This document shows positions 14,256 to 63,554 of a stretch of 64,000 nt of DNA, one piece after another. The position numbers and the translations under genes were made by a program. Origin of the DNA: Williamsia sp. DF01-3 (lineage in GTDB: Bacteria > Actinomycetota > Actinomycetes > Mycobacteriales > Mycobacteriaceae); assembly GCF_023051145.1 (NCBI RefSeq), contig NZ_JALKFS010000005.1, positions 744,001 through 808,000 of the forward strand. Direction: 5' to 3'. The notes under the pieces are model-generated. The model saw nothing but the letters and a program-made list of their open reading frames with translations. It had not been told where the DNA came from and did no database searches. The stretch's first letter is position 1. Every line of letters begins with the position of its first letter.

Positions 14256-14411
14256 GTAGGTGATGAAGCCTGGTGCGTCTTTACCGCGGTAAAGACGCAC
14301 CAGCTTCGGGATGTATTGCACTAGCTCAACTGGCGTGTCCCCGGTAGATGAGTCCACGAGGTTTTAGAGTCTTTGTTGCCCCGACCTGGGGTTGGAAGGA
14401 CGATGAACATC

Positions 14412-14693
14412 ATGGCTGGACGGAAACGGCACTCCGCGGAGCAGATCGTGCGCAAGTTGCGCCAGGGCGACGAGCTGGAGGCGGCCGGAAAGACCTCTGA
14501 GGAGATCGCTGCCGAACTCGAGGTGTCGGTGGCAACGCTGTTCAACTGGCGCCGCCAGTACGGCGGTATGGACACCGACGCGGCCAAGGAGCTCAAAGAG
14601 CTCCGCGAGCAGAACAGCCGACTCAAACGTCTGCTCGCCGACGCCGAGCTCGAGAAGGACGCGCTGCGTGAGGTGGCCAAGGGAAAATTCTGA
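14412..14693 (+). CDS. IS3-family transposase OrfA, copy 1
   Basis: A 93-residue HTH protein: RKRHSAEQIVRKLRQGDELEAAGKTSEEIAAELEVSVATLFNWRRQYGG, then a leucine-zipper-like tail. It binds the IS ends. ATG 14412 follows GGAAGGA with 10-nt spacing. The frame ends just after the slippery heptamer G GGA AAA (14681-14687), which is correctly phased for -1 slippage into OrfB, giving the OrfAB transposase. Confidence 0.88.
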   Translation: MAGRKRHSAEQIVRKLRQGDELEAAGKTSEEIAAELEVSVATLFNWRRQYGGMDTDAAKELKELREQNSRLKRLLADAELEKDALREVAKGKF

Positions 14694-14722
14694 GCCCAGC
14701 TGCCAAACGCCGCGCCGTCGAC

Positions 14723-15556
14723 ATGCTCGTGGAAACACTGGGCGTGTCGAAGCGGTTGGCGTGCAAAGCTGTTGGGCTTGCCCGCTCTACCTACAGTCGT
14801 ACCCCGATCGCGCAAACCACAGCCGACCCGGACGCCGAACTGCGTGGCTGGTTGCGCACATACGCCACCAAACACCCGCTGCACGGGTTCCGGCGGGCCT
14901 GGGCGGCGTTGCGCTTCGACGAGCACCGTGAGGTGAACAAGAAGAAAGTGCACCGCCTCTGGAAGGAAGAAGGCCTGCAGGTCCGCATCCACCATCCCCG
15001 CAAACGGGCCGGCCAATCCTCGGTTCCATTCGTGGACGCAGATGCACCGAAGGTGGTGTGGGCACTGGACTTTCAGTTCGATTCCACCATCGACGGCAAA
15101 GCGGTCAAGATCGCGTCGATGATCGACGAACACACCCGACTGTCGGTCCTGAACATCGTCGAGCGATCGATCACGAGCGACCGGTTGGTCGTCGAGCTGG
15201 GCAAAGCGTTCGCGCTGTGGGGTGGGCCGCCGCAAGTGCTGCGAATGGACAACGGACCGGAGTTCATTTCCCATGCGCTGCAACAGTTCTGCGACAAGAA
15301 GGTAGGTATCTCTTACATCCCTCCGGGCACGCCGTGGAACAACGGGCACATCGAATCGTTCAACAATCGCCTACGGAAGGAATGCCTGAACCGCAACCAC
15401 TGGACCAACCTGCTCGAGGCACGCGTGGTCATCGAAGACTTCAAAGACGACCATAACCACCGACACCGGCACTCATCGCTCGGCTACCGAACACCGGCCG
15501 AGTATGCTGCCCAATGCACCCACCGGCATCATCCCGTGGAATGCGAGATCGACTAA
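14723..15556 (+). CDS. IS3-family transposase OrfB (DDE integrase domain), copy 1
   Basis: A 277-residue rve-type catalytic domain: ALDFQFDSTIDGK (first Asp), LRMDNGPEFIS (second Asp) and NNGHIESFNNRLRKECLN (Glu), followed by HRHRHSSLGYRTPAEYA. The frame is open upstream to the OrfA slippery site, so the natural product is an OrfAB fusion made by -1 frameshifting; independent initiation at ATG 14723 is possible. The gene is intact and identical to copy 2. Confidence 0.9.
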   Translation: MLVETLGVSKRLACKAVGLARSTYSRTPIAQTTADPDAELRGWLRTYATKHPLHGFRRAWAALRFDEHREVNKKKVHRLWKEEGLQVRIHHPRKRAGQSSVPFVDADAPKVVWALDFQFDSTIDGKAVKIASMIDEHTRLSVLNIVERSITSDRLVVELGKAFALWGGPPQVLRMDNGPEFISHALQQFCDKKVGISYIPPGTPWNNGHIESFNNRLRKECLNRNHWTNLLEARVVIEDFKDDHNHRHRHSSLGYRTPAEYAAQCTHRHHPVECEID

Positions 15557-19661: not shown

Positions 19662-19838
19662 GCCGCGACTGCCAATCAGGCGCGGTTGCAGCTCGACTAT
19701 CCCTATCGCGATGCACAATTACAATCTAGTTACCTATGTCGGTACTGTTCTTGCTAATGGCGTGTCCCCGGTAGATGAGTCCACGAGGTTTTAGAGTCTT
19801 TGTTGCCCCGACCTGGGGTTGGAAGGACGATGAACATC

Positions 19839-20120
19839 ATGGCTGGACGGAAACGGCACTCCGCGGAGCAGATCGTGCGCAAGTTGCGCCAGGGCGACGA
19901 GCTGGAGGCGGCCGGAAAGACCTCTGAGGAGATCGCTGCCGAACTCGAGGTGTCGGTGGCAACGCTGTTCAACTGGCGCCGCCAGTACGGCGGTATGGAC
20001 ACCGACGCGGCCAAGGAGCTCAAAGAGCTCCGCGAGCAGAACAGCCGACTCAAACGTCTGCTCGCCGACGCCGAGCTCGAGAAGGACGCGCTGCGTGAGG
20101 TGGCCAAGGGAAAATTCTGA
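19839..20120 (+). CDS. IS3-family transposase OrfA, copy 2
   Basis: Identical to the OrfA of copy 1, including the HTH segment (TSEEIAAELEVSVATLFNWRRQ) and the G GGA AAA slippery site, here at 20108-20114. Confidence 0.88.
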   Translation: MAGRKRHSAEQIVRKLRQGDELEAAGKTSEEIAAELEVSVATLFNWRRQYGGMDTDAAKELKELREQNSRLKRLLADAELEKDALREVAKGKF

Positions 20121-20149
20121 GCCCAGCTGCCAAACGCCGCGCCGTCGAC

Positions 20150-20983
20150 ATGCTCGTGGAAACACTGGGCGTGTCGAAGCGGTTGGCGTGCAAAGCTGTT
20201 GGGCTTGCCCGCTCTACCTACAGTCGTACCCCGATCGCGCAAACCACAGCCGACCCGGACGCCGAACTGCGTGGCTGGTTGCGCACATACGCCACCAAAC
20301 ACCCGCTGCACGGGTTCCGGCGGGCCTGGGCGGCGTTGCGCTTCGACGAGCACCGTGAGGTGAACAAGAAGAAAGTGCACCGCCTCTGGAAGGAAGAAGG
20401 CCTGCAGGTCCGCATCCACCATCCCCGCAAACGGGCCGGCCAATCCTCGGTTCCATTCGTGGACGCAGATGCACCGAAGGTGGTGTGGGCACTGGACTTT
20501 CAGTTCGATTCCACCATCGACGGCAAAGCGGTCAAGATCGCGTCGATGATCGACGAACACACCCGACTGTCGGTCCTGAACATCGTCGAGCGATCGATCA
20601 CGAGCGACCGGTTGGTCGTCGAGCTGGGCAAAGCGTTCGCGCTGTGGGGTGGGCCGCCGCAAGTGCTGCGAATGGACAACGGACCGGAGTTCATTTCCCA
20701 TGCGCTGCAACAGTTCTGCGACAAGAAGGTAGGTATCTCTTACATCCCTCCGGGCACGCCGTGGAACAACGGGCACATCGAATCGTTCAACAATCGCCTA
20801 CGGAAGGAATGCCTGAACCGCAACCACTGGACCAACCTGCTCGAGGCACGCGTGGTCATCGAAGACTTCAAAGACGACCATAACCACCGACACCGGCACT
20901 CATCGCTCGGCTACCGAACACCGGCCGAGTATGCTGCCCAATGCACCCACCGGCATCATCCCGTGGAATGCGAGATCGACTAA
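20150..20983 (+). CDS. IS3-family transposase OrfB, copy 2
   Basis: Identical to OrfB of copy 1, with all DDE residues intact (ALDFQFD, RMDNGPEF, GHIESFNN). Produced as an OrfAB fusion through the -1 slippery site or alone. Confidence 0.9.
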   Translation: MLVETLGVSKRLACKAVGLARSTYSRTPIAQTTADPDAELRGWLRTYATKHPLHGFRRAWAALRFDEHREVNKKKVHRLWKEEGLQVRIHHPRKRAGQSSVPFVDADAPKVVWALDFQFDSTIDGKAVKIASMIDEHTRLSVLNIVERSITSDRLVVELGKAFALWGGPPQVLRMDNGPEFISHALQQFCDKKVGISYIPPGTPWNNGHIESFNNRLRKECLNRNHWTNLLEARVVIEDFKDDHNHRHRHSSLGYRTPAEYAAQCTHRHHPVECEID

Positions 20984-25968: not shown

Positions 25969-26832
25969 ATGACGGGACGAGTTGAGGGCAAGGTTGCTTT
26001 CATCACCGGAGCGGCGCGTGGGCAGGGTCGCAGCCATGCGGTGCGGTTGGCTGAGGAGGGTGCCGACATCATTGCGGTGGACATCTGTGAGCAGATCGAG
26101 TCCAATCCGTATCCTCTTGCCTCTGAGGCGGATCTGGCGGAGACGGCTGCTTTGGTGGAGAAGTTGGATCGCCGGATCGTGACGGTGAAGGCTGATGTGC
26201 GGGATCGGGGTCAGCTCAGGTCTGCGTTGGATGAGGGGCTGGCGGCGTTGGGGCATGTGGATGTGGTGGTAGCCAATGCGGGGATTCTGCCGATGTCGAT
26301 GGGTGATCCGCACGCGTCGGATTTCATCGATGCGGTGGATGTCGACCTTCTCGGAGTGATGAATGCGGTGGCGGTGGCCTTACCGCATTTGGGCCGTAAT
26401 GGGTCGGTGATCATCACCGGATCGACTGCCGCGATGCTGCCGAACACGACGGACAACCCGAACATGGGGCCTGGGTCGGCTGGTTATGGCTGGGCGAAGA
26501 AGACGTTGATGGGGTACGCCGAGCAACTCGCTTTGCAGTTGGCTCCGGAGTTCATCCGAGTCAATGTGATACATCCGACCAATGTGAACACGCATTTGTT
26601 GCACAACGATGGTTTGTACAGTGTGTTCCGGCCGGATCTGGAGAATCCGACCCGTGAGGATGTTGAGCCGGCGTTCACGATGTTCCAGGCGATGCCGATC
26701 CCGTATGTCGAGCCTGTGGACATCTCCAATGCGGTGTTGTTCTTCGCCTCGGACGAGTCTAGGTATGTCACCGGGCAGCAGTTGCGGGTTGATGCCGGAT
26801 CACTTCTGAAGGTGCCAGGCGGCCCAGCCTAG
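25969..26832 (+). CDS. Mycofactocin-coupled SDR family oxidoreductase
   Basis: A 287-residue classical SDR. ATG 25969 follows GCGAGGAGAAGATC; the frame upstream is shadow. It shows TGAARGQGRSHAVRLAEEGADIIAVDI, NAGI, ITGSTAAM, the YGWAKKTL catalytic Tyr/Lys and the C-terminal ASDESRYVTG. The GQGRSHAV..DICEQIESNPYPLAS pattern with an insert after beta-2 is the signature of the group whose tightly held NAD is thought to be reoxidised by mycofactocin. Such enzymes oxidise alcohols such as carveol. The following thioesterase may be co-transcribed. Confidence 0.87.
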   Translation: MTGRVEGKVAFITGAARGQGRSHAVRLAEEGADIIAVDICEQIESNPYPLASEADLAETAALVEKLDRRIVTVKADVRDRGQLRSALDEGLAALGHVDVVVANAGILPMSMGDPHASDFIDAVDVDLLGVMNAVAVALPHLGRNGSVIITGSTAAMLPNTTDNPNMGPGSAGYGWAKKTLMGYAEQLALQLAPEFIRVNVIHPTNVNTHLLHNDGLYSVFRPDLENPTREDVEPAFTMFQAMPIPYVEPVDISNAVLFFASDESRYVTGQQLRVDAGSLLKVPGGPA

Positions 26833-33331: not shown

Positions 33332-34564
33332 ATGGTCGACTTGAACGACATCCCGATTTTCGACGCCGATACGCACATGTACGAGACGCCCGACGCCCTG
33401 ACCAAGTTCTTACCTGAGAAGTTCGCTCCGGCAGTGCAATTCGTGCAGGTCGGCAAGCGGACGCGGATCGCGATCCTGAACAAGATCACCGAGTTCATCC
33501 CCAACCCGACGTTCGAGAAGGTCGCGGCACCGGGAGCGCACGAGAAGTTCTACTCGGGCCAGAATGTCGAGGGTCTGACGCTGCGCGAAATGCAGGGAAC
33601 GGCCATCGAGGCCCCGCCCGCGTCACGCGAGCCTCGCGCACGAATCGCAGAGATCGATCGTCAGGGCGTCGACGCTGCGCTCGTCTATCCGACGCTGGCC
33701 AACCTGGTCGAGCATTCTGCCGCCGAGGACCCGGAACTCACCGTGGCGATGATCCACGCGCTGAACCAGTGGATGCTGGAGACCTGGGGCTTCACCCACG
33801 AGAACCGGTTGTTCATGACGCCGGTCATCACCTGTGCGCTTGTCGATGAGGCACGTCGCGAGTTGGAGTACCTCATCGACAACGGTGCCAAGGTGGTGCT
33901 CATCAAGCCCGCGCCGGTCAACGGCTACAAGGGCTGGCGCTCGCCGGCACTCCCCGAGTTCGACCCGTTCTGGAAGGACGTCGAGGACGCCGGTATGCCG
34001 GTTGTGCTGCACGCCAGTCAGCCGCCACTCGACGAGTACGTGAACAAGTGGGAACCGCCGTCCACCAACAACTTCATGACGATGAGCTCGTTCCGTTGGC
34101 TTGCGCTGGGACATCGTGAGATCTCGGACATGCTGGGCTCGCTCATCTGCCACGGCACCTTGACCCGATTCCCGAAGCTGCGCATCGCCTCGGTGGAGAA
34201 CGGCAGCGCCTGGATCCATCCGCTGTTCCACGACCTGGCGGACCTCAACAAGAAGATGCCCCAGAACTTCCCAGAGGATCCGCTCGAGGTCTTCCGCCGG
34301 AACGTGTGGGTGAGCCCGTTCTGGGAGGGTTCGGTTGCCGACGTCGTCGAGACGGTCGGCTGGGACAAGGTGATGTTCGGTTCGGACTACCCGCATCCCG
34401 AGGGGCTGACCGAGCCGAAGGGCTTCTACAAGTACGCCGAAGGTATGAACGAGCGGCGAGCCTACGACTTCATGGGCGACAATGCGCGCCGGTTCTTGGG
34501 GCTGCCGTTGCGCAATCCGAGCCCGGACGCCGCCCAGGCTCCTGCGGACTCGCTCTCGGTCTGA
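33332..34564 (+). CDS. Amidohydrolase-2 family metal-dependent hydrolase
   Basis: A 410-residue TIM-barrel hydrolase. Metal-site motifs are DADTHMYE near residue 11, VVLHAS in the middle and VMFGSDYPHPEG near the C-terminus. The group is related to ACMSD/LigW decarboxylases and is frequent in actinobacterial steroid- and aromatic-degradation loci, where functions are mostly unproven. Its separate operator and the strong terminator behind it make it a single-gene unit. Confidence 0.88.
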   Translation: MVDLNDIPIFDADTHMYETPDALTKFLPEKFAPAVQFVQVGKRTRIAILNKITEFIPNPTFEKVAAPGAHEKFYSGQNVEGLTLREMQGTAIEAPPASREPRARIAEIDRQGVDAALVYPTLANLVEHSAAEDPELTVAMIHALNQWMLETWGFTHENRLFMTPVITCALVDEARRELEYLIDNGAKVVLIKPAPVNGYKGWRSPALPEFDPFWKDVEDAGMPVVLHASQPPLDEYVNKWEPPSTNNFMTMSSFRWLALGHREISDMLGSLICHGTLTRFPKLRIASVENGSAWIHPLFHDLADLNKKMPQNFPEDPLEVFRRNVWVSPFWEGSVADVVETVGWDKVMFGSDYPHPEGLTEPKGFYKYAEGMNERRAYDFMGDNARRFLGLPLRNPSPDAAQAPADSLSV

Positions 34565-42602: not shown

Positions 42603-43739
42603 ATGAATTGTGCAATCGCCGGGATCGGACGAACCGACTACTCGCGCCGATCGAACCGAACACCATTGGCGATGGCCATCGAGGCGTGCCGAGGTGCCAT
42701 CGATGATGCGGGATTGAAACCTGCTGACGTGGACGGCATCTGCACCTTCATGGTGAACGACTCGGCCCAGCCGATCACGGTGGGTTGGGGATTGGGTATC
42801 GACGAGTTGTCGTGGGCCAACGCCATGTATGGCGGCGGGAACCTGGTGGCCGACCAGATCGCCACGGCAGCAGCGGTGATCGAGGCCGGAATGTGCCGGG
42901 CGGTGTTGATCTACCGGTCGCTGAACGGTCGGTCGGGACACCGCTTCGGAACCGTCGAGGGTCCACTGCTGGTCGATCAACAAGATCAGTTCGATGCCCC
43001 GTCCGGATTCCTGGTGCCACCACAGTGGTTTGCGATGTGGGCGCGACGGCATCAGCACGAATACGGGTCCACCGAAGAGGATCTCGGGCACATCGCGATC
43101 ACCCAACGAGCGCACGCTGTACCCAACGAGCACGCGTTGCGACGCGAGCCGCTGACGATGGACGAATATCTTGCGGCCCGGTGGATCAATGAACCGTTCC
43201 GGGTGCTGGACTGTACCTCCGAGGTCGACGGCGCGGTGGCCATCCTGCTGGTGGCCGAAGACGTGGCTGCCGACGGGGCGCACGACCCGGTGTGGCTCGT
43301 CGGGTCGAGCAATTCGCAGAGCGGTTCGGGCTGGACGCAGTGGGATGATCCTGCGGCGATGTACTCGCGTTCGGCCGGGCCGAAGCTCTGGGAGCGTACC
43401 GGGCTCGGGCCGTCCGACATGGACGTCGCGTGCATGTACGACTGCTTCACGTACACGGTGATGGCAACGATGGAGGGATATGGATTTTGCGAAAAGGGTG
43501 AGGTGGGAGAGTTTTTCGCGACCGGAAGGGCATCCTACGGCGGGGACGTGGTGGTCAATCCGCACGGCGGACTGCTGTCGGAGGGATACATACACGGTCT
43601 CAACCATCACTTCGAGGCCGTGACACAGCTCCGGCACGCGGCGGGCGCCCGGCAGGTCGACAACGCAGAACTCGCCTTGGTCACCGCAGGCGGTGGCCCG
43701 TTCGGCGGAGCCAACATCTACAGCAGGGAACGCCCGTGA
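42603..43739 (+). CDS. Thiolase-like lipid-transfer protein (Ltp2/retro-aldolase type)
   Basis: A 378-residue thiolase-fold protein. It has CAIAGIGRTDYSRRS at the start, GICTFMVND and, instead of a clear thiolase nucleophile Cys, the segment CMYDCFTYTVMATMEGYGF and NPHGGLLSEGYIHGLNH, as in Ltp2-like aldolases that use Tyr/Asp chemistry to cleave tertiary beta-hydroxyacyl-CoAs in sterol side-chain breakdown. The next gene encodes a DUF35 partner, as required for Ltp2, with a 4-bp overlap (GTGA). I infer a retro-aldolase heterocomplex rather than a thiolytic enzyme. Confidence 0.82.
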   Translation: MNCAIAGIGRTDYSRRSNRTPLAMAIEACRGAIDDAGLKPADVDGICTFMVNDSAQPITVGWGLGIDELSWANAMYGGGNLVADQIATAAAVIEAGMCRAVLIYRSLNGRSGHRFGTVEGPLLVDQQDQFDAPSGFLVPPQWFAMWARRHQHEYGSTEEDLGHIAITQRAHAVPNEHALRREPLTMDEYLAARWINEPFRVLDCTSEVDGAVAILLVAEDVAADGAHDPVWLVGSSNSQSGSGWTQWDDPAAMYSRSAGPKLWERTGLGPSDMDVACMYDCFTYTVMATMEGYGFCEKGEVGEFFATGRASYGGDVVVNPHGGLLSEGYIHGLNHHFEAVTQLRHAAGARQVDNAELALVTAGGGPFGGANIYSRERP

Positions 43740-44161
43740 CCGATTCACTCATGCTTGCCCCGTTGCCGGTTCCGGATCCCGACTCGGCGCCGTACTGGAA
43801 CGCCCTCGCCGAGGGAAAACTCAAGATCTGCCGGTGCGTCGACACCGGAACGTGGATCCATCCGCCGCTAGAACGCAGCCGGATCACCGGTGGCCCGGTG
43901 CGGTTCGACGAAGTCAGTGGCTTCGGAACCATCTTCAGCTACATCGTGATCCGTCAGGTGACCGTGCCGGGTCACCAGCCGCCCTACGTGACGGCCATCA
44001 TCGAACTGGACGAACAACCGGGGCTTCGCATGACCGGTGTGGTGGTCGCCGAACCCCAGGCCCTCCGGATCGGCCAACGAGTCAAGGCCCGGATCGTGGA
44101 CATCGGTGAAAGTGGTGTGAAAGCGCCGGAATTCGTACTTGTCGACACCGACGAGGCCTGA
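43736..44161 (+). CDS. DUF35 OB-fold (acyl-CoA-associated) protein
   Basis: A 141-residue OB-fold protein starting with GTG in the overlap with the thiolase-like gene. The opening PLPVPDPDSAPYWNALAEGKLKICRC and the later VSGFGTIFSYIVIRQVTVPG and GQRVKARIV are typical of DUF35 partners. Only one Cys pair (CRC) remains where a CxxC..CxxC zinc ribbon normally occurs, so zinc binding is probably lost. It should stabilise the Ltp2-like enzyme. Confidence 0.83.
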   Translation: MTDSLMLAPLPVPDPDSAPYWNALAEGKLKICRCVDTGTWIHPPLERSRITGGPVRFDEVSGFGTIFSYIVIRQVTVPGHQPPYVTAIIELDEQPGLRMTGVVVAEPQALRIGQRVKARIVDIGESGVKAPEFVLVDTDEA

Positions 44162-52456: not shown

Positions 52457-53461
52457 ATGGGTCAGCTCAGCATGCACCCGACCGGATGGTTTCAGGTCGC
52501 CTGGTCGGCCGACCTGGCGATCGGCGATGTTGTCCCTCTCCACTACTTCAGTTCCGAACTGGTCGCCTTTCGCGGCAAGGACGGCCAGGTGCACGTGCTC
52601 GACGCACACTGCCAGCATCTCGGTGCCAATCTGGCCGTCGGTGGATGCGTCGTGGACGACGGGATCCAGTGCCCGTTTCACGGGTGGGTCTGGGATGGGC
52701 GGGGCCGGAACGTGCGAATCCCGTACGAGGCGAAGCCGAATCGCGCCCGCAAGGTGCGCAGTTGGCCGGTCAGCGAGCGAAACGACTCCGTCTACATCTG
52801 GCACGACGTCCTCGGCCGGGATCCGATGTGGGAGGTGCCCGACGCCCTGCGAAGTCTCGGCGACCACATCAGTGCCACGACGTTCCGGCCCGTCGATGCC
52901 AACGCACGCGCCCTGACCAAGAACGTGCGCGTTCACCCGCAGACCATCGCCGAGAATGCCGTCGACCCGCATCACTTCCGGTATGTGCACCACACGCCGA
53001 TCAGCCCGGTGGTGTTGCGCGAGACCTCGGACAACGCCTCGTGGGCGGCCAAGGTCGGCTTCGGCAAGAAGTGGCAGCACGGAATCGACGACCCGCAGGA
53101 CACCATCAATACACTCGAAATCCTGTGGAGTGGAGTCGGATTGAGCTTCAGTGGTGAGCACATGCGCAACGGCATCCGGGTCACCGGCATCTGCCCGACC
53201 CCGGTCGATGACCAGGTGAGTGACATCTTCGGCACCTACTGGATCGATGAGGGCAGCGAAGATCCCGAAGGATTCATCGCGAACGGCAAGGCCGCGCTCG
53301 TCGATGACGTCAACATCTGGAATCACCAGCGCTACATGGATCCTCCCGGGCTCTCACCATCGGAGGCGGCAGGCTTTCGTAAGCTGCGTACCTGGGCCCG
53401 TGACTTCTATCCGCCGGTCGAGGATGCGGACACCAAGAGCCTGTCGGTATCTGCCCGATAG
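52457..53461 (+). CDS. KshA-like Rieske non-haem iron oxygenase
   Basis: A 334-residue oxygenase. ATG 52457 follows AGGAGG; the frame upstream is not coding. It opens MHPTGWFQVAWSADLAIGDV, has the Rieske cluster ligands in CQHLGANLAVGG and CPFHGW, and the mononuclear iron ligands in ENAVDPHHFRYVHH. The size and plan are those of 3-ketosteroid 9-alpha-hydroxylase oxygenase (KshA). It would use electrons from the KshB-like reductase at 54090. A paralogue starts at 63928. The exact steroid or terpenoid substrate is unknown. Confidence 0.88.
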   Translation: MGQLSMHPTGWFQVAWSADLAIGDVVPLHYFSSELVAFRGKDGQVHVLDAHCQHLGANLAVGGCVVDDGIQCPFHGWVWDGRGRNVRIPYEAKPNRARKVRSWPVSERNDSVYIWHDVLGRDPMWEVPDALRSLGDHISATTFRPVDANARALTKNVRVHPQTIAENAVDPHHFRYVHHTPISPVVLRETSDNASWAAKVGFGKKWQHGIDDPQDTINTLEILWSGVGLSFSGEHMRNGIRVTGICPTPVDDQVSDIFGTYWIDEGSEDPEGFIANGKAALVDDVNIWNHQRYMDPPGLSPSEAAGFRKLRTWARDFYPPVEDADTKSLSVSAR

Positions 53462-56908: not shown

Positions 56909-57571
56909 CTAGGTGAGTTCGGTGTAGTTGAACAACTGGCCGCGGATGAGCAGTTTCGCCGACCGCAGTGTGCTGTGATAATCGTCCGGCGAGGCGGTCG
57001 CAGCGGTTTCCACCAGTCCTCGCAGCAGTGCGTAGAGGACGTTCACGGTGCCGTCGACATCGGTGGTGAGAGCGTGCGGGCCACCACTGGTCACGATCTG
57101 CTCGAGCAGCCCTCGCATCGTCGTGAAGATCGAATTGCTGGCGACCTGGAGGTTGAGGTGCTGGGCTCCCTCGACGCGCACTGCCTGTTCGAATGCGGCG
57201 ATGTGGGGGAACTCCCGCATCACCTGATCGGCTTCGTCAAGGACCGCTACGAGGTTGTCCAACAAGGTGTTGCCGGTCAACGCAGCTTCGGCCATTCTGG
57301 TGACCGCTGTCCCGGCGAACTCGTTGAAGGTGGTTCTGACGAGCTCGGACTTGTTCGGGAAGTAGTGGTACAGAGTGCCGCTGGTCATCTCGGCTTCGCG
57401 GGCGACCTCGCGGATCGTCGCTCGGGTGTATCCCACTTCTGCGACCAGGCGCATCGCCGCGAACATGATGCGTTTGCGAGTCTCCTCGCTGTTCGCGCCG
57501 ATAGGGCGACCGAGCTGGTTTGCCGTCGTGGTCACGTGTTCCTCGAGGTCGATGATGGCCTGCACCGACAT
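56909..57571 (-). CDS. TetR-family regulator
   Basis: About 220 residues from ATG 57571: RKRIMFAAMRLVAEVGYTRATIREVAREAEMTSGTLYHYFPNKSELV is the HTH. It begins 12 bp after the flavoprotein stop and so is the seventh gene of the E1/Rieske operon, which it probably controls. Confidence 0.87.
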   Translation of the reverse strand: MSVQAIIDLEEHVTTTANQLGRPIGANSEETRKRIMFAAMRLVAEVGYTRATIREVAREAEMTSGTLYHYFPNKSELVRTTFNEFAGTAVTRMAEAALTGNTLLDNLVAVLDEADQVMREFPHIAAFEQAVRVEGAQHLNLQVASNSIFTTMRGLLEQIVTSGGPHALTTDVDGTVNVLYALLRGLVETAATASPDDYHSTLRSAKLLIRGQLFNYTELT

Positions 57572-57582
57572 TATGGTCCACG

Positions 57583-59223
57583 TTACGTCTCGCTGGAAAC
57601 GGAGGCCGGATGACGGGCGTCCTGTGCCGGTGAATCGCCGACCACCGAGAGCGCGGCGTGCTGACCTGCACGTTGGCCGGAGAACACACAGTCGGCCAGT
57701 GCCAGTCCGCTGACGTAGGACCTCGAACAGATCCCCACCGCGGTCCGTCCGGCTGCGTAGAGCCCCGCGATCGGCGAATCGTGGCGGTCGAGAACGAGAC
57801 CACTCGTTCCGGCAACTCGCAAGCCCCCGAGGGTGAGGCCCGGGACAAAATATGCCAGCGACTCGCGCAGAGATATGTCGATGCCGTAGAACGGGCCCTC
57901 TTCGATCGGGGCACACATCTGTGCGGCCTTGTGCGCGGGATCTCCTGTCCCCGAAGCGATTGCGTCGTTGTACTCGGCGACACTGGCGGCCAGCCCGGAG
58001 GCGGAGATGCCGAGCTTGTCTGCCAGTTCAGACAGCGAGTTGGCTTTGCGGTGCCCGGTGGTGAACACCGAGGCGAGCTGGGCTCGCTGGAAAAGCAGTG
58101 TCTGCGTGCGTACTTGCGCTCGCGCGCGCCGCCAGATGGCCGAGTCCGCGATCAAGTAACCCTTGCCGCCGTGCTCGGTGACCATGATCTCGGCGTGGGT
58201 TGCTCCGTACAGGTCCTCGTTCGCGATTCGCTTGCCGTTGACCCCGACCGCGATTCCTTCGAGCATGGCCGCGGGCGGGGACAAGAATCGCCAGGCGGTG
58301 ACACGTTCCATCTGTGCGGTGGTACCGCCGGCACTGACCCCCAGAGCGATGCCTTTGCCGTCGTCCCCCTCTGTGCCCAATGGTGAGATCAGGTTGTAGG
58401 CGGGGGCGAGTTCGCGCGTCATGTCACGGTTGAACACAAATCCGCCTGCCGAGAGGATCACGGTCGGCGACCGAACGGTCAGGACCTCGGCCGACGCCGC
58501 CCACTCACGTTCTGCGAGCCGGTTGAGGGACTTTCCGACGGCGGGTACCCAGTTGGTCAACTTGGCACCGAGATAGGCCAGCCTGCGATACCGGTGTGCC
58601 TCGTCGTTGTCGATGGGCATCGTCCGGCCGCGGATGCCTCGCACCTGGCCGTCCTCGATGATCAGTTCGTCGACCCGGGTCGCTGGTAGCACGGTGACGC
58701 CGAGCCCCAGTGCCGCGTCGCGCAGTCTCTCCCAGAGGACGCGGCCCGAATTCATTCCTTTGGCCACCTGCCGATGTCCGCGCGGTGCGGGCGTGGCGTA
58801 CTGGTTGTAGGGGTACGCCTTCTCGTTACCCGAGTAGTAGAGGTAGTGGCGATCGGTCGGATACGACGTCTTGTATTCGCATAGTGATGAATCAAACTGT
58901 GCGCCGTGCTTTTCCAGCCAGCTCAGGCGTTCCACACTGCCGTCACAGAATTGGCGGAGGGTCTCGTCGTCCACCACACCCTGCACCTCTTGACGCAGGT
59001 ACTCGAACATGTTCTCGGCATCGTCGGGACACCCGGCCTCCTGCTGATACCGAGTTCCCCCACCTGCGTACACCACACCTCCGGACAACGCCGACGCCCC
59101 ACCACCGAGGGCGCGATCGACAACCAGGACCTTGGCGCCGCTCTCTGCCGCCGCGATGGCGGCACAGGCGCCGGCAGCGCCGAACCCGACGATCACAACG
59201 TCGTAGTCATAAGGGGTGTTCAT
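57583..59223 (-). CDS. FAD-dependent dehydrogenase, KstD/fumarate-reductase flavoprotein family
   Basis: A 546-residue flavoprotein from ATG 59223. The FAD fingerprint is YDVVIVGFGAAGACAAIAAAESGAKVLVVD, then GGASALSGGVVYAGGGT, SPTVILSAGGFVFN, the active-site-like region RSYVSGLALADCVFSGQRAG and GLYAAGRTAVGICS. The plan is that of 3-ketosteroid delta-1-dehydrogenases and related ketone dehydrogenases that insert a ring double bond. The start overlaps the ferredoxin stop by 4 bp. In this operon it may act before or after the Rieske enzyme on the same ring. Confidence 0.85.
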   Translation of the reverse strand: MNTPYDYDVVIVGFGAAGACAAIAAAESGAKVLVVDRALGGGASALSGGVVYAGGGTRYQQEAGCPDDAENMFEYLRQEVQGVVDDETLRQFCDGSVERLSWLEKHGAQFDSSLCEYKTSYPTDRHYLYYSGNEKAYPYNQYATPAPRGHRQVAKGMNSGRVLWERLRDAALGLGVTVLPATRVDELIIEDGQVRGIRGRTMPIDNDEAHRYRRLAYLGAKLTNWVPAVGKSLNRLAEREWAASAEVLTVRSPTVILSAGGFVFNRDMTRELAPAYNLISPLGTEGDDGKGIALGVSAGGTTAQMERVTAWRFLSPPAAMLEGIAVGVNGKRIANEDLYGATHAEIMVTEHGGKGYLIADSAIWRRARAQVRTQTLLFQRAQLASVFTTGHRKANSLSELADKLGISASGLAASVAEYNDAIASGTGDPAHKAAQMCAPIEEGPFYGIDISLRESLAYFVPGLTLGGLRVAGTSGLVLDRHDSPIAGLYAAGRTAVGICSRSYVSGLALADCVFSGQRAGQHAALSVVGDSPAQDARHPASVSSET

Positions 59224-59648
59224 CGTCTGGACTCCTTGTCCGTAGGTACTTGGGATCCGGCTTCGGTTGTCGCGGTGGTTGATTCCACGTTCTCGGTGAC
59301 ACGCACGCCGGGCTTGCGGATCGTCGCGTCGCCCGTCAGGAAGAGCTGGCACGCCAGTCGCACCCGCCGCGGATTGGCCCGCCGTTTGCGTCTGCCGAGG
59401 TCACCCAGCATGTGCTCCTCGGCTTCGGTTCGCGGCGAGAGGTTGTCGAGGCCGTCGAGAACCTCGCATTGACAGGCCGTACAGGTGCCCATCCCGTAGC
59501 AGAGTGTGGGCCATTGGTAGCCGGCCCGCCACGCAGCCTCGATGAGGGACTCACCCGCGCGAACCTCGATGTCGTGTTCACCGGGATCAACTCTCACGAC
59601 CACCGCTGCGGTGGCAGGCTGCACCCGACGGTTGGGGGGTCGGCTCAT
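59220..59648 (-). CDS. [2Fe-2S] plant-type ferredoxin
   Basis: A 142-residue ferredoxin with VRAGESLIEAAWRAGYQWPTLC and cluster ligands in CYGMGTCTACQCEV and LACQL. It has a longer, polar C-terminal tail than usual. It overlaps both neighbours by 4 bp (ATGA), so it is made together with the Rieske oxygenase and the flavoprotein and is the likely electron donor to the former. Confidence 0.88.
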   Translation of the reverse strand: MSRPPNRRVQPATAAVVVRVDPGEHDIEVRAGESLIEAAWRAGYQWPTLCYGMGTCTACQCEVLDGLDNLSPRTEAEEHMLGDLGRRKRRANPRRVRLACQLFLTGDATIRKPGVRVTENVESTTATTEAGSQVPTDKESRR

Positions 59649-61069
59649 TTCGACGCGATGTACCGGTCGATCTCGTTGTGCAGACTGTAGATCATTGGTT
59701 CGTACCGAGGTGACATCGTGGCCTCACCGAAGGCGTCGGACCGATATCCCACCTGCTGTCGGCTGATGTTCTCGACATCCTGGCGGAGAACGAACGGCCA
59801 CTCCTCCACGGCGAGGGGGCCTTCCGGACGAGCCGGCGCATTGTCCACGTCGTCTTCCCTGGGTATCTGCATTGCCAGGGCCTCGAAGATGCACGAGTTG
59901 GGATCGGTCCCGTTCGGCCGCGCCCGGTAGAAGAGCATGTTGCCGGTGATTCCCAAGATCACCATGTTCGGAAAGAGGAAGCCGAATGTCGCGGCGTTGG
60001 GATCGGGATCGGGTAGTGGGATGTCGGCGTCCGCTGCGTATTTGTACAGTTCCTCGTAGTAGCGGGGGAAGAGCTGTTCGTCGGGCAGGTCCCGGATCCG
60101 GTCCGCGATGAACTCGTCACGTGCGGTGCTCACGGCATCCGTTCCCTCGAACAGGACGCGATTCTGCTCGATGAAGTAGCGGCCGAAACTCATTCCCTTG
60201 ACGGGGGAGTTGGTCATCGCGAAGGTGCTTGTCGGATTCTCGGGGTCGAACGGGGGTGTGGTGTCGACATGGCCCATCCCGTGGTGGTAGAAGTTCAGAC
60301 CGTCGATGTTGTAGTCGTCACCCGTGGCGCCGAGCGCCAGTTCCGGGTGGGCCTGCATGATGTGATATGCCTCCATGAACGCTTCGATGGCGACCTTCCA
60401 GTTCGACGGCAGCACAGCGTATTTCCACCACCGCACCCGCATTCTGTCCATACCCGTCGGTGCCAGGTGGTTGTCGTAGCTGCCGAAGAACTCCTCTAGT
60501 GAGGGCGCGTCATCGTCGAAGTTGAGCCAGACGAACCCGTATTTCACCACCGAGCGCACCTCGCGTAGGCCCATCTTGTCCGGATCGATTGTGCCGGAGA
60601 CAAACCCGGTCTTGCCATAGATGTAAGACTGGGTACCGTCGGTGTTCCATCGCCAGCCATGGAAGGGACAGACGATCTGTCCGCCACCGAACGTTCCACA
60701 CGATGTCGTGGGGACCAGCTGGGTCGCACGGTGCGGGCAGACGTTGTGGAATGCCTTGATGGTGTGTTCGTCGACCCGCACGATCATCACCGACTGCTCG
60801 ATGATCGTGTATTCAATGTAGTCACCCGGCAGCGGGATGTCTTCTGGCCTCGCGGCCCACTGCCAGGTGTGCATCCACATCTTCTTGTTCTCGAGGTCGG
60901 CGAACTCCTTGTCGTAGTAGCGCTCGGAGCGTATGTGGATCCCGTCGGCCATCCGATGGGGAACACTCGACGTGTCGATCGCATCGTCGGGGATGCAGGG
61001 CTTCACCTGTGCCGCCGCGGTGTCCGGCGTTTCGGTGTGGGCTTCGGGACGGTTCAGTTGCGTTGTCAT
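59645..61069 (-). CDS. Rieske aromatic-ring-hydroxylating-type dioxygenase alpha subunit
   Basis: A 474-residue oxygenase subunit from ATG 61069. The Rieske ligands are in NVCPHRATQLV and IVCPFHGWRWN; the catalytic iron ligands are in EAFMEAYHIMQAHPE. The N-terminal part (RYYDKEFADLENKKMWMHTWQWAARPEDIPLPGDYIEY) is typical of the alpha-subunit family that works without a beta subunit. None is encoded nearby. Electrons probably come from the overlapping ferredoxin gene product. Confidence 0.88.
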   Translation of the reverse strand: MTTQLNRPEAHTETPDTAAAQVKPCIPDDAIDTSSVPHRMADGIHIRSERYYDKEFADLENKKMWMHTWQWAARPEDIPLPGDYIEYTIIEQSVMIVRVDEHTIKAFHNVCPHRATQLVPTTSCGTFGGGQIVCPFHGWRWNTDGTQSYIYGKTGFVSGTIDPDKMGLREVRSVVKYGFVWLNFDDDAPSLEEFFGSYDNHLAPTGMDRMRVRWWKYAVLPSNWKVAIEAFMEAYHIMQAHPELALGATGDDYNIDGLNFYHHGMGHVDTTPPFDPENPTSTFAMTNSPVKGMSFGRYFIEQNRVLFEGTDAVSTARDEFIADRIRDLPDEQLFPRYYEELYKYAADADIPLPDPDPNAATFGFLFPNMVILGITGNMLFYRARPNGTDPNSCIFEALAMQIPREDDVDNAPARPEGPLAVEEWPFVLRQDVENISRQQVGYRSDAFGEATMSPRYEPMIYSLHNEIDRYIASK

Positions 61070-61147
61070 GGGCGGTTCTCCAAAGGAGTTGCGGGGCGGC
61101 AGACACTCTGCGCGCACCGGGATGTGGATCAGGTCAGAGGGCGGCGG

Positions 61148-61381
61148 TCACGCCTCGACGGACGCGACGACCGTGCCGACGGGGTAGGTCTCGTCGACCT
61201 CTCCGATGATCGTGATGATGCCGTTCACGGGAGATTCGATCTCGGACTCGGCTTTGTCGGTGGCAAGTGTGTAGATCACTTGACCGGGCTTGACGGTGTC
61301 ACCGGTCTCGACATGCCATTCGACGATCGATCCTTCGTTCATGGCCACACCGAGTTTGGGAATCTTGAGCTTGTGCTTCAT
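61148..61381 (-). CDS. Free-standing lipoyl (biotinyl/lipoyl-attachment) domain protein
   Basis: A 77-residue protein that is only a lipoyl domain: IPKLGVAMNEGSIVEWHVETGDTVKPGQ and the lipoylation motif TLATDKAESEIESPVNG with the Lys. There is no peripheral-subunit-binding or acyltransferase domain, which normal E2 proteins carry. It lies 24 bp after E1 beta in the same operon. It would be acylated by the E1 pair, but the acyl acceptor enzyme is not in the window. Confidence 0.88.
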   Translation of the reverse strand: MKHKLKIPKLGVAMNEGSIVEWHVETGDTVKPGQVIYTLATDKAESEIESPVNGIITIIGEVDETYPVGTVVASVEA

Positions 61382-61405
61382 ACGAAGTCGCCGTTCTCGT
61401 CGCGG

Positions 61406-62404
61406 TCAGCCGACCAGAGCCCGCACGGCTGCCTCGATGCGGCTGCCGGGGAGGAACTGCTGTTCCAGCGACGACGCGTAGGGTACGGGTGTGTTGGCTC
61501 CGCCCACCCGCCCCACCGGGCCGGCGAGGTCACCGAAGAGCTCACTGTGGATCTGGGCTGAGAGTTCCGCGCCGAAGCCGCCGCGGGTGACCGCTTCGTG
61601 GACCACAACGGCACGCCGGGTTTTGGCCACCGACTTGAAAATGGTGTCCGTATCGAGCGGCTGCAGGGACCGCAGATCGACCACCTCGAGTGAGATTCCC
61701 TCGCCGGCGAATTGTTCGGCAACCGCAAGCGATTCCACCACCTGGCGACCGTAGGTGATGATGCTCAGGTCGGTGCCTTCGCGGGCAATCCGGGCCGATC
61801 CGATCGGTACGCGGTAGTCGCCCTCGGGCACATTGTCTTTGGCCGAGAAGTAGAGGCTGTTCATCTCGATGAACACGCACGGGTCGTCATCGAAGATGCT
61901 GGACAGCAGAAGGCCTTTGGCGTCTGCGGCGGTACTGGGAACGATGACCTTGAGTCCCGGCGTGTGGATGAGCTGGGCCTCGAGCATGTCCGAATGCTGT
62001 GCACCGAACCCGGCGCCGGCGCCGGTGGTGGTGCGCACCGTGATCGGCACAGGTGTTCTGCCGCCGGACATGTAGCGCAATTTGGCGGCATGGTTGATCA
62101 ACTGATCCGATGCCACGGTCAGGAAGTTCATCAGCATGATCTCGGCGACCGGTCGCATCCCTGCGATGGCTGCCCCGATGGCGGCGCCCATGATCGCCTG
62201 CTCGGTGATGGGTGTGCGGCGAACACGGTCGGACCCGTATTTGGTCTCGAGGCCTTTGTGGATACCGAATCCACCGCCTTTCGGATCTTGGATGTCCTCG
62301 CCGAGCTCGAACACCGAGCTGTCCAGACCCAAGGCCACGTCCAGCGCATCGTTGATCGCCGCGGCCATCATCAGTTTTCGGTCGGTGACGGTATCGACAC
62401 TCAT
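61406..62404 (-). CDS. 2-oxoacid (pyruvate/acetoin-type) dehydrogenase E1 beta subunit
   Basis: A 332-residue transketolase-like beta subunit: AINDALDVALGLDSSVFELGEDI, TPITEQAIMGAAIGAAIAGMRPVAEIM, TGAGAGFGAQHSDMLEAQLIHTPGLKVIVPS and HEAVTRGGFGAELSAQI. With the alpha subunit it forms the thiamine diphosphate site. Its start overlaps the alpha stop. The closest general pattern is acetoin/pyruvate dehydrogenase; the true 2-oxo substrate is unknown. Confidence 0.9.
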   Translation of the reverse strand: MSVDTVTDRKLMMAAAINDALDVALGLDSSVFELGEDIQDPKGGGFGIHKGLETKYGSDRVRRTPITEQAIMGAAIGAAIAGMRPVAEIMLMNFLTVASDQLINHAAKLRYMSGGRTPVPITVRTTTGAGAGFGAQHSDMLEAQLIHTPGLKVIVPSTAADAKGLLLSSIFDDDPCVFIEMNSLYFSAKDNVPEGDYRVPIGSARIAREGTDLSIITYGRQVVESLAVAEQFAGEGISLEVVDLRSLQPLDTDTIFKSVAKTRRAVVVHEAVTRGGFGAELSAQIHSELFGDLAGPVGRVGGANTPVPYASSLEQQFLPGSRIEAAVRALVG

Positions 62405-63396
62405 CGGGCGATCTCCTCTGCGTAAACATCCGTGGTCAGTTCGGAAATGTCGGGAAGGGGCTGTTCGAGTGCCCAGCCGGCAGCATCATCGACCTCGTCG
62501 CGAGCGGCCTGGTCGATTGCATCGAGTTCTGCTGCGCTGGCGATGGATTCGGCGATCAGCCGGGATCGGTACAGGGGTACTGGGTCGGCTTCGAGCGCCG
62601 CGGCGAACTCGTCTTCGGGAATGTACTCACCGTTGTCACCGAAGTTGTGCCCGCAGAACCGGTAGGTCACAGCTTCGAGCAGGGTAGGGCCCTCGCCGCG
62701 GCGTGCGCGATCGATGGCGTCCGCGGAGGCCTTGTACAGCGCGATCGGATCGTTTCCGTCCACTGTCACCCCGGGCATCGAGTACGCGACCGCGCGGTCG
62801 GCGACGTCGGTCACGGATGTCCCGCCGGCAAGGGGCGTGTATTCGGCCCACTTGTTGTTCTGACAGACGAACACCACCGGGAGTTTCCAGATGGTCGCCA
62901 GGTTCAGGCTCTCGTGGAATGCGCCGATGTTGCTGGCACCGTCACCGAAGTTGACCACTGTGACCTGGTCTGTTCCGCGCATCTGTGATGCCAGGGCCAA
63001 CCCGTTTGCGATGGGCAGGCCCGATCCGACCACTCCGGTGGTCACCATCAGCCCGTGCTGAGGCGAGGTGACGTGCATCGGCCCGCCCTTGCCCCTGCAG
63101 GTACCGGTGGCCCGGCCGAGGTATTCGGCCCAGAGATCGCGCAGCGGAATGCCTTTGGCGACCTGATCGTGCAGGCCGCGGTAGGTGGTGACGACGTAAT
63201 CGTCGGCACGCAGGTGTGCGGCGACGGACGCGGCCGCGAACTCTTGCCCGCGCGGCGAGTAGTACATGCCGCTGATCTCGCCGCTCAACATCAGCGAGCG
63301 ATACTTCTCGTCGAACGCCAGGATCCGTACCGCCGTTCGGTACAGACCGATGGCCGTGTCGACGTCGACATCGACGCCGGATTCGGTCGTGGTCAT
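62401..63396 (-). CDS. 2-oxoacid (pyruvate/acetoin-type) dehydrogenase E1 alpha subunit
   Basis: A 331-residue thiamine-diphosphate subunit. Motifs include GQEFAAASVAAHLRADDYVVTTYRGLHDQVAKG, GTCRGKGGPMHVT, GSGLPIANGLALA and the ThDP/Mg site GDGASNIGAFHESLNLATIW..QNNKWAEYTP. It heads a six-gene overlapping operon (E1 alpha, E1 beta, lipoyl domain, Rieske alpha, ferredoxin, KstD-like). Start ATG 63396 follows AGGAGGCACT. Confidence 0.9.
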   Translation of the reverse strand: MTTTESGVDVDVDTAIGLYRTAVRILAFDEKYRSLMLSGEISGMYYSPRGQEFAAASVAAHLRADDYVVTTYRGLHDQVAKGIPLRDLWAEYLGRATGTCRGKGGPMHVTSPQHGLMVTTGVVGSGLPIANGLALASQMRGTDQVTVVNFGDGASNIGAFHESLNLATIWKLPVVFVCQNNKWAEYTPLAGGTSVTDVADRAVAYSMPGVTVDGNDPIALYKASADAIDRARRGEGPTLLEAVTYRFCGHNFGDNGEYIPEDEFAAALEADPVPLYRSRLIAESIASAAELDAIDQAARDEVDDAAGWALEQPLPDISELTTDVYAEEIAR

Positions 63397-63524
63397 AGTG
63401 CCTCCTGCTCAGATGGGCTGGGAACCACCGAGGCTCGGTCATGACCGAGCGGCCTTCGACGGGGTCTCACCGCGCCGAGAGCGCGGTTACCGGTCGGGAT
63501 GCCGGCGGATCCAAGCAATCAATC

Positions 63525-63554
63525 AATCGATCGATTACATAGTGGAATCTATGT
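63525..63554. promoter_or_regulatory. Two adjacent palindromes before the E1 operon
   Basis: AATCGATCGATT (63525-63536) is a perfect 12-bp palindrome and is followed directly by ACATAG-TGGAAT-CTATGT (63537-63554), an inverted repeat with perfect 6-bp arms. They lie 130-160 bp before the E1 alpha start and may be the operator of the operon's TetR. Confidence 0.45.

Follow-up and report, generated by a model that had tools for sequence, protein, structure and literature searches.

A conserved operon joining a clade of E1 subunits and a detached lipoyl domain to a Rieske oxygenase and a KstD-like flavoprotein in Williamsia sp. DF01-3

Six adjacent genes of Williamsia sp. DF01-3 combine a two-subunit E1, a lipoyl domain standing alone and a ring-oxygenation set, and sequence comparison across genomes indicates that they are a conserved unit in which the E1 is a separate clade accompanying a detached lipoyl domain. 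Our preferred reading, which we place slightly below an even chance, is that the operon serves to degrade a hydrophobic alicyclic (terpenoid- or steroid-like) compound and that oxygenase-primed cleavage of an alpha-ketol C-C bond yields acyl-CoA. That this is a widespread and so far undescribed strategy, with a Rieske oxygenase and a KstD4-like flavoprotein making a terpenoid or steroid alpha-ketol and a ThDP E1 with a free lipoyl protein cleaving it to acyl-CoA, is a more tentative proposal.

All six genes lie on the minus strand, overlapping or closely packed, in the window (the whole 64-kb stretch of DNA analysed), where the preliminary description had placed them. The first encodes the ThDP-binding E1-alpha (331 aa, 62401-63396), a member of the free-lipoyl clade, and is overlapped by 4 nt by the gene for E1-beta (332 aa, 61406-62404). 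After a gap of 24 nt follows the free-standing lipoyl domain protein (77 aa, 61148-61381) and, after another 78 nt, the alpha subunit of a Rieske non-haem iron oxygenase (59645-61069); an alternative in-frame start of the latter at 61117 would leave a gap of 30 nt. Overlaps of 4 nt then connect the Rieske gene to that of a [2Fe-2S] ferredoxin (142 aa, 59220-59648) and the ferredoxin gene to that of a KstD-like FAD protein (546 aa, 57583-59223), for which the start at 59223 was chosen over a longer frame from 59352. All six products fit their Pfam/NCBIfam families, and coordinates and family matches together bear out the earlier claim of six genes joined by overlaps or short gaps.

In a bootstrapped tree of 61 rows (88 rows less 27, mainly near-copies), the E1 of the operon fell into a distinct clade with support of 100/100. 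Its members come from Actinobacteria and Proteobacteria, and 48 loci were sampled. Within 13 kb of the clade E1, a free-standing lipoyl protein was found at 45 of the 48 loci, a Rieske oxygenase at 37 and the flavoprotein at 30, whereas 40 E1 pairs outside the clade had one free lipoyl protein, one Rieske oxygenase and no flavoprotein. The 11 clade loci that lack a Rieske oxygenase and the 18 that lack a KstD-like protein within this distance include some whose context ends at a contig edge. E1-alpha, E1-beta, free lipoyl, Rieske and FAD proteins occur together within 13 kb at 26/48 loci and all six genes at 13/48. Eleven of these 13 are contiguous and fall into two orders, known besides Williamsia from Mycolicibacterium, Nocardia and one Streptomyces plasmid, one shared by the window and L046-L049 and the other by L039 and L050-L054; the remaining two are L128 and L041. 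The same gene order had been suggested as something to look for in other genomes, and its recovery supports the earlier view of the operon as an unusual module.

The reverse comparison gave a similar picture. A similar Rieske oxygenase (E<=1e-58) was present in 6 of 397 genomes, and in all six a clade E1-beta lay on the same contig at a distance of 0.3 to 18 kb. Since the gene set recurs across genera, the adjacency is not by chance; accidental proximity of the Rieske genes was ruled out by this recurrence together with the reverse linkage. A plain pyruvate or acetoin dehydrogenase with Rieske genes beside it by accident, the outcome that would have spoken against the preliminary description, is thus not what the clade counts and the reverse comparison show. 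No E1-beta match was found on viral contigs. Among the literature matches listed, titles and abstract openings gave no account of the module; PMC12239570 and PMC10653915 deal with different steroid routes.

Some loci suggest a looser association. L136, L139 and L144 encode the E1, the free lipoyl protein and crotonases with neither a Rieske oxygenase nor a KstD-like protein, so the E1/lipoyl pair can work without them, and in L121-L126 the lipoyl gene stands at a distance of ~6-7 kb, beyond genes for ligase, acyl-CoA dehydrogenase, ferredoxin and thiolase-like proteins. Both arrangements would suit a general acyl-CoA-forming dehydrogenase acting on a late small product (e.g. an acyloin or diketone), the Rieske oxygenase and flavoprotein taking part in other steps of that pathway and sharing no more than regulation with the pair. 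We consider this unlikely: the 4-base overlaps and kept gene order that are a trait of window-type loci, and the 6/6 reverse linkage, favour closely connected, though not necessarily consecutive, steps.

The E1 pair exceeds the Pfam cut-offs of PF00676, PF02779 and PF02780, and ThDP dependence is predicted. E1-alpha carries the motifs YYSPRGQE, YRGLHD and VTTGVVG, and its active-site region differs from those of the pyruvate and acetoin types. Typical of the clade are H, D, T and T at the positions of human G93, F94, G134 and N135 and Tyr or Trp at that of human His63, and these changes argue, at the level of sequence, for a substrate other than pyruvate. They bear on another route, alpha-oxidation, in which the Rieske oxygenase would alpha-hydroxylate a branched or ring-bearing acid, a dehydrogenase would form the 2-oxoacid, and the E1 and lipoyl protein would release an acyl-CoA one carbon shorter. 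The best models of both subunits are indeed of the pyruvate dehydrogenase type, E1-beta almost reaching the cut-off (NF006667, 317.2 vs 321), and AMP-dependent CoA ligases are found in or near many loci. E1-alpha, however, stays far below the cut-offs (TIGR03182, 293.9 vs 393.85; TIGR03181, 241.3 vs 411.35), the replacements near human active-site residues are clade-wide, and the flavoprotein is nearest a ketosteroid desaturase rather than a hydroxyacid oxidase. We regard alpha-oxidation as doubtful but not far-fetched.

The public annotations examined call the module E1s generic dehydrogenase E1 subunits or acetoin:DCPIP oxidoreductase. Like the AcoABC acetoin dehydrogenase, the module has separate E1-alpha and E1-beta subunits, ThDP and a lipoyl carrier. 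Unlike it, the module has E1s of a separate clade plus a Rieske oxygenase and a flavoprotein, and its lipoyl domain stands alone, whereas the AcoC-type domain carries ~290 further residues, which we take to be an alpha/beta-hydrolase-type domain. In our reference set, E1-betas encoded beside AcoC-type genes had 46-49% identity to the nearest module E1-beta, and the AcoC-linked E1s (L179-L184, three of which were retained in the bootstrapped tree) fell outside the clade.

The 77-aa lipoyl protein scored 60.5 bits against PF00364 (cut-off 22.1). Its best model was the AcoC-type NF011457, matched over the lipoyl part alone (67.8 bits vs a cut-off of 307). The lysine of its TDKAE motif, the predicted lipoylation site, is kept in every aligned free lipoyl protein. 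As previously noted, neither E2 nor E3 is encoded in the operon; genes of both kinds lie elsewhere in the genome. Four frames there match the E2-type family PF00198 (510, 655, 597 and 1303 aa), and the E3 gene ends an E1a-E1b-E2-E3 run near C5:582000. As all four frames are at least 510 aa long, a stand-alone E2 elsewhere in the genome was ruled out. Several relatives have a separate E2 catalytic domain (E2cat) at the locus itself, in the order E1a-E1b-lipoyl-E2cat in L041, L042, L043 and L055 and E1a-E1b-lipoyl-E3-E2cat in L138, the sole relative with a confirmed E3 (429 bits vs a cut-off of 408.8). In a rough test counting frames from stop to stop, a short stand-alone E2 frame was absent from 12 of 16 module-bearing genomes, as from that of Williamsia; the other four had E2-type frames below 300 aa, local to the module in G093 and G200 and of 266 and 265 aa in G585 and G586, the last near a contig end.

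Because E2cat has a gene of its own in some relatives, and E3 in one, we interpret the lipoyl protein most readily as a lipoyl domain that has become detached within a split complex. It had earlier been left open whether this protein serves an unusual step as an acyl or reducing-equivalent carrier or borrows E2 and E3 from the housekeeping complex. The E2cat and E3 of relatives, and the lack of a short E2 in most module-bearing genomes, favour borrowing in Williamsia sp. DF01-3, and the split-complex evidence makes an unusual role as reducing-equivalent carrier superfluous. The module thus resembles pyruvate and branched-chain 2-oxoacid dehydrogenase complexes in its type of E1-alpha/beta and its lipoyl domain, and in some relatives also in an E2 catalytic domain and in one an E3; it differs from them in the operon without E2 and E3, the detached lipoyl domain and the changes in the active-site region. 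A second short lipoyl/biotin-type frame of the genome (84 aa, near C5:4159535) is presumably a biotin carrier; none of its neighbours matched our reference set.

The window Rieske protein has the CXH...CXXH cluster ligands (C111/H113/C134/H137), a bridging acid (Glu233) and the iron-binding histidines that follow it (H236/H241), and these seven residues are invariant in 15 aligned module Rieske proteins. The best solved and best named matches were carnitine monooxygenase/glycine betaine monooxygenase, of which only the alpha subunit is comparable; the solved match covers only residues 55-253 of 474. The bridging Glu is common to carnitine monooxygenase, so amine chemistry is possible for the module Rieske, whose score against the NCBIfam model of that class is, however, far below the cut-off (117.5 vs 670). 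Module Rieske proteins do not form a single clade: a tree of 48 rows, 25 of them module proteins, required 8 changes, with 12 more module Rieskes left out by the length filter. The Rieske proteins nearest L138 and L143 come from a group common without the E1, and by their tree position these two links may be accidental; another Rieske, of window type, is found ~18 kb from the E1-beta in these genomes. The ferredoxin is the probable electron donor of the oxygenase.

The FAD protein exceeds the NCBIfam cut-offs of two PRK07121 models of unnamed function. Its closest solved structure is 4AT0, 3-ketosteroid delta4-(5alpha)-dehydrogenase, whose Tyr319, Tyr466 and Ser468, which we take to be catalytic, correspond to Y339, Y503 and S505 in the window protein. 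The columns of Tyr319 and Ser468 align only in the flavoproteins of the window, Mycolicibacterium, Nocardia and Streptomyces, the others keeping only that of Tyr466. 4AT0 was named a steroid enzyme by its depositors. Predicted structures were of moderate quality (mean pLDDT 69.8 for the flavoprotein and 69.9 for the Rieske protein), and no conclusion was drawn from either.

Three plus-strand genes of the window have counterparts linked to the module elsewhere. The product of 25969-26832 is a mycofactocin-coupled SDR (TIGR03971, 355.9 bits vs a cut-off of 300) that reaches 61% identity with the SDR whose gene immediately precedes E1-alpha in L135 and other loci, and is a candidate upstream alcohol dehydrogenase. 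An Amidohydrolase_2 family enzyme (33332-34564) is 74% identical to one ~2 kb downstream of the module in L049, and a cytochrome P450 (36784-38049) is 58% identical to one just upstream of the module in the same locus. Mce-type genes adjoin L047 and L123, and MMPL/DUF1302/DUF1329/YCF48 genes adjoin L041-L043; these neighbours and the mycofactocin-coupled SDR point to a hydrophobic substrate.

In the pathway that we propose, the P450 and the SDR would produce a ring or side-chain ketone, the KstD4-like flavoprotein would desaturate it alpha,beta to the carbonyl, and the ferredoxin-fed Rieske oxygenase would hydroxylate beside the carbonyl to give an alpha-ketol, which oxidation could turn into an alpha-diketone. 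E1-alpha/beta would then place ThDP on the carbonyl and cut the alpha-ketol C-C bond in the manner of acetoin dehydrogenase, and the free lipoyl protein would receive the acyl group in an oxidative transfer. From there an E2 acyltransferase, which Williamsia would borrow and some relatives encode for the purpose, would shift the group to CoA, and a housekeeping E3 would reoxidise the lipoyl moiety. Overall, oxygenase-primed C-C cleavage would deliver acyl-CoA directly and take over from a Baeyer-Villiger or retro-aldol reaction. The flavoprotein residues, the neighbouring genes and the chemistry of acetoin dehydrogenase make ketone/alpha-ketol chemistry a somewhat better fit than the removal of a 2-oxoacyl side chain, which had been suggested at first.

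Precedents exist for parts of this chemistry. Passages of PMC12247030 report that acetoin:DCPIP oxidoreductase cleaves acetoin, passing a two-carbon unit to lipoamide, and accepts methyl acetoin, a tertiary alpha-ketol, as donor. DesAB, the steroid-17,20-desmolase of Clostridium scindens, is in excerpts of PMC3735941 a split, two-subunit transketolase-like enzyme proposed to cut the C17-C20 bond of cortisol, a steroid alpha-ketol, with ThDP. The likeness is one of chemistry only: DesAB is annotated as a transketolase, and its four-gene operon has, as described there, a dehydrogenase and a transporter and no lipoyl or Rieske gene. Related ThDP enzymes also run in the other direction, and the module could be biosynthetic, its E1 acting as a carboligase that builds a tertiary alcohol, as E1-type enzymes from natural-product clusters do (PMC12247030, in part). 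The lipoyl carrier, joined by E2 and E3 in some relatives, implies oxidative acyl transfer instead, and the neighbouring genes, for acyl-CoA dehydrogenases, crotonases, CoA ligases and importers, are of a catabolic kind, which makes a biosynthetic role very improbable.

The E1s form a clear subfamily linked with the detached lipoyl domain and in many loci with oxygenases, and it extends over Mycolicibacterium, Nocardia, a Streptomyces plasmid and several Proteobacteria. If the proposed mechanism is true, C-C cleavage by ThDP and lipoyl group joins aerobic terpenoid/steroid catabolism and provides acyl-CoA without ATP. The module would also be of practical use for finding such pathways in genomes, and biocatalysts that cleave or form alpha-ketols might be drawn from it.

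A TetR-family regulator (220 aa, 56909-57571, minus strand) starts 11 nt past the stop of the FAD gene. A TetR gene is likewise downstream in three Mycolicibacterium loci, and identity to the same-position TetR of L046, L047 and L048 is 47-48%. The regulator may control the operon through a candidate operator palindrome, AATCAATCAATCGATCGATT (63517-63536), ~120 bp upstream of the E1-alpha start, and the two offer a direct route to the inducer. The palindrome is the sole site within 3 mismatches of the pattern in the 5.59-Mb genome and is also found upstream of E1-alpha in L046, L047 and L048.

The six minus-strand genes of the module were confirmed at 57583-63396, where the preliminary description had placed them, and neighbouring genes overlap by 4 nt or are separated by 24 or 78 nt. 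A domain search assigned E1_dh (PF00676) to E1-alpha, Transket_pyr/Transketolase_C to E1-beta, Biotin_lipoyl to the 77-residue lipoyl protein, Rieske/Ring_hydroxyl_A to the oxygenase, Fer2 to the ferredoxin and FAD_binding_2 to the KstD-like flavoprotein. The search for the same gene set in other genomes that the preliminary description had proposed recovered complete six-gene sets in Streptomyces sp. NBC_00564, at four Mycolicibacterium loci and at five Nocardia loci. The window and Mycolicibacterium share the order E1a-E1b-lipoyl-Rieske-Fd-FAD; Nocardia and Streptomyces have Rieske-Fd-FAD-E1a-E1b-lipoyl. Related sets read Rieske-E1a-E1b-lipoyl-ligase-FAD in Azospirillum sp. B510, Rieske-FAD-E1a-E1b-lipoyl-E2 catalytic domain-ligase in Paraburkholderia sprentiae, and SDR-E1a-E1b-lipoyl-crotonase-ligase-Rieske-FAD in group g29, a common type among genomes of the same family.

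Our E1-beta search covered 397 genomes of the same order as the window genome. Contexts of up to 20 kb were taken for 28 of the 30 listed E1-beta places that lie outside the window genome and reach 53% identity or more, and 12 weaker matches were fetched as controls. Using profiles built from reference proteins, we placed 88 E1 pairs on a tree, a free lipoyl protein being defined as one with at most 10 residues after the lipoyl domain. The window side of the branch held 48 rows from 48 different loci, and this clade had 100/100 support in a fully bootstrapped tree of 61 rows (33 in the clade). A free lipoyl protein was present in 45/48 clade loci, a Rieske protein within 13 kb in 37, a KstD-like protein within that distance in 30 and all three in 26; these counts are associations within our sample and not prevalences, because rows were picked by similarity to the window, near-copies are included and some contexts end at contig ends. 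Chance may account for some of these neighbours (L045, L057, L138 and L143). Among the 40 rows outside the clade the corresponding counts were 1 (lipoyl), 1 (Rieske) and 0 (KstD-like), and lipoyl domains followed by at least 289 residues occurred only there. The sole exception was a second, distant E1 pair inside locus L124, near the Rieske gene of the neighbouring pair. This second pair (~17.1-19.9 kb of the locus) has its own free lipoyl protein, with identities to the reference set of 38% (E1b), 37% (E1a) and 42% (lipoyl), and would be an independent or very divergent case outside the main clade.

The association also held when approached from the Rieske gene. Of the 397 genomes, 6 had a Rieske protein at E≤1e-58, and in all six (G000, G301, G140, G084, G102 and G093) the contig with this gene also encoded a clade E1-beta, at a distance of 0.3 to about 18 kb. 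At the G301 locus (L120), a free lipoyl protein was not found in the DNA examined. The best Rieske matches in eight sampled genomes of the same genus had 30-35% identity (E 9.4e-55 or weaker), so no close copy was seen in those eight.

The window lipoyl protein is a bare lipoyl domain for which an AcoC-type model scored best, and the lysine is kept in all aligned free lipoyl proteins. G093 (locus L138) reads E1a-E1b-lipoyl-E3-E2 catalytic domain; its E3 lies above the dihydrolipoyl dehydrogenase cut-off (429 vs 408.8), and PF00198 is the only match of its E2. By BLAST, locus L143 appears to have the same arrangement, with a putative E3, and four Proteobacterial loci (L041, L042, L043 and L055) read E1a-E1b-lipoyl-E2 catalytic domain. 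Because these partners accompany E1 and the lipoyl protein in relatives, the latter is most plausibly a detached lipoyl domain belonging to a split complex. The four E2-type frames of the window genome are all long and an E3 stands at the end of an E1a-E1b-E2-E3 run, so the operon would have to share its E2 and E3. Of the two alternatives offered in the preliminary description, an unusual carrier or borrowed E2/E3, it is thus the second that gains.

In E1-alpha, comparison of 20 core clade members with 17 others identified H, D, T and T as clade-typical at human G93, F94, G134 and N135 (20, 20, 18 and 20 of the 20), and Tyr or Trp occupies the position of human His63. We take these positions to surround the ThDP site. 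The clade is unlike both the human pyruvate enzyme and AcoC-linked enzymes here, which suggests that it acts on another substrate; counting against this, E1-beta fell just short of the cut-off of a pyruvate-dehydrogenase subfamily model (317.2 vs 321).

Acetoin:DCPIP oxidoreductase, an enzyme of the same kind as the module E1, is described in PMC12247030 as cleaving acetoin with transfer of the two-carbon unit to lipoamide, and as accepting the tertiary alpha-ketol methyl acetoin as a donor. For DesAB, ThDP-dependent cleavage of a steroid alpha-ketol has been proposed (PMC3735941). The Rieske monooxygenase could hydroxylate beside a ketone to give an alpha-ketol for ThDP-dependent cleavage, and we infer that attack of E1/lipoyl on this product would tie all module parts together. 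The main rival is alpha-oxidation, the oxidative decarboxylation of a 2-oxoacid. We rate the module, for which we favour alpha-ketol cleavage, as a variant within ThDP/lipoyl oxidative acyl-transfer systems. Judged by titles and the start of abstracts, none of the papers listed in our literature search described the gene set; with three of the listings truncated and subscription journals mostly outside the search, this negative does not prove absence from print.

The flavoprotein exceeds the cut-off of two NCBIfam 'FAD-binding protein' models without a named function. Among solved structures its best match is 4AT0, which bears the name 3-ketosteroid delta4-(5alpha)-dehydrogenase, whose catalytic residues we take to be Tyr319, Tyr466 and Ser468. 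Window Tyr339, Tyr503 and Ser505 align with these, and the Mycolicibacterium, Nocardia and Streptomyces flavoproteins carry the same residues. Other types retain the Tyr466 column alone; most have a Tyr one column off Tyr319, possibly an alignment shift. The Rieske protein shares its bridging Glu with carnitine monooxygenase.

A TetR gene begins 11 nt after the flavoprotein gene, and TetR genes with 47-48% identity to it follow the same genes in M. vaccae (L046), M. pyrenivorans (L047) and M. peregrinum (L048). Upstream of E1-alpha, a palindrome at 63517-63536 fits AATCAATCAATTGATTGATT, a pattern drawn up after inspecting the window and L046, with 2 mismatches; it is the sole match with at most 3 mismatches in the 5.59-Mb genome (backward-read control, 0). 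The palindrome also lies upstream of E1-alpha in L046, L047 and L048, each with two or three extra sites close to genes for an SDR and a CoA ligase, a distribution that suggests a regulon. In L047 this may also take in a divergent run of sulfotransferase, alkylsulfatase-like, SDR and Rieske genes adjoining Mce genes. The site was absent from L049, where no TetR match was seen, from L050 despite its TetR gene, and from L134.

Neighbouring genes point to a hydrophobic alicyclic compound as substrate. The window encodes a mycofactocin-coupled SDR (25969-26832; up to 61% identity to the SDR whose gene immediately precedes E1-alpha in g29-type loci), and an amidohydrolase (33332-34564; 74%) and a P450 (36784-38049; 58%) for which only L049 has counterparts next to the module. 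Mce-type genes adjoin the module loci L047 and L123, and MMPL/DUF1302/DUF1329/YCF48 genes adjoin L041-L043.

In three clade loci (L136, L139 and L144), E1 and a free lipoyl protein lie near several crotonases and a P450, with neither a Rieske nor a KstD-like gene within 13 kb; the pair may serve another use there. A separate ten-row E1a/E1b clade, mostly from Acidimicrobiia bins (L059-L065, L068, L070 and L073), had no lipoyl, E2 or Rieske gene in the DNA examined, partly just 3-5 kb. Elsewhere in the window, a thiolase-like gene is followed by a ChsH2-type zinc-ribbon/OB-fold gene (42672-44161); such a pair forms an aldolase in steroid side-chain degradation. A KshA-like Rieske gene lies at 52457-53461 and a second, 66% identical, begins just past the right end of the window (8003-8929 of L029). 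A two-gene element, presumably encoding IS3-type transposases, occurs twice (14403-15556 and 19830-20983), ~4.3 kb apart, with equal predicted lengths and the same N-termini.
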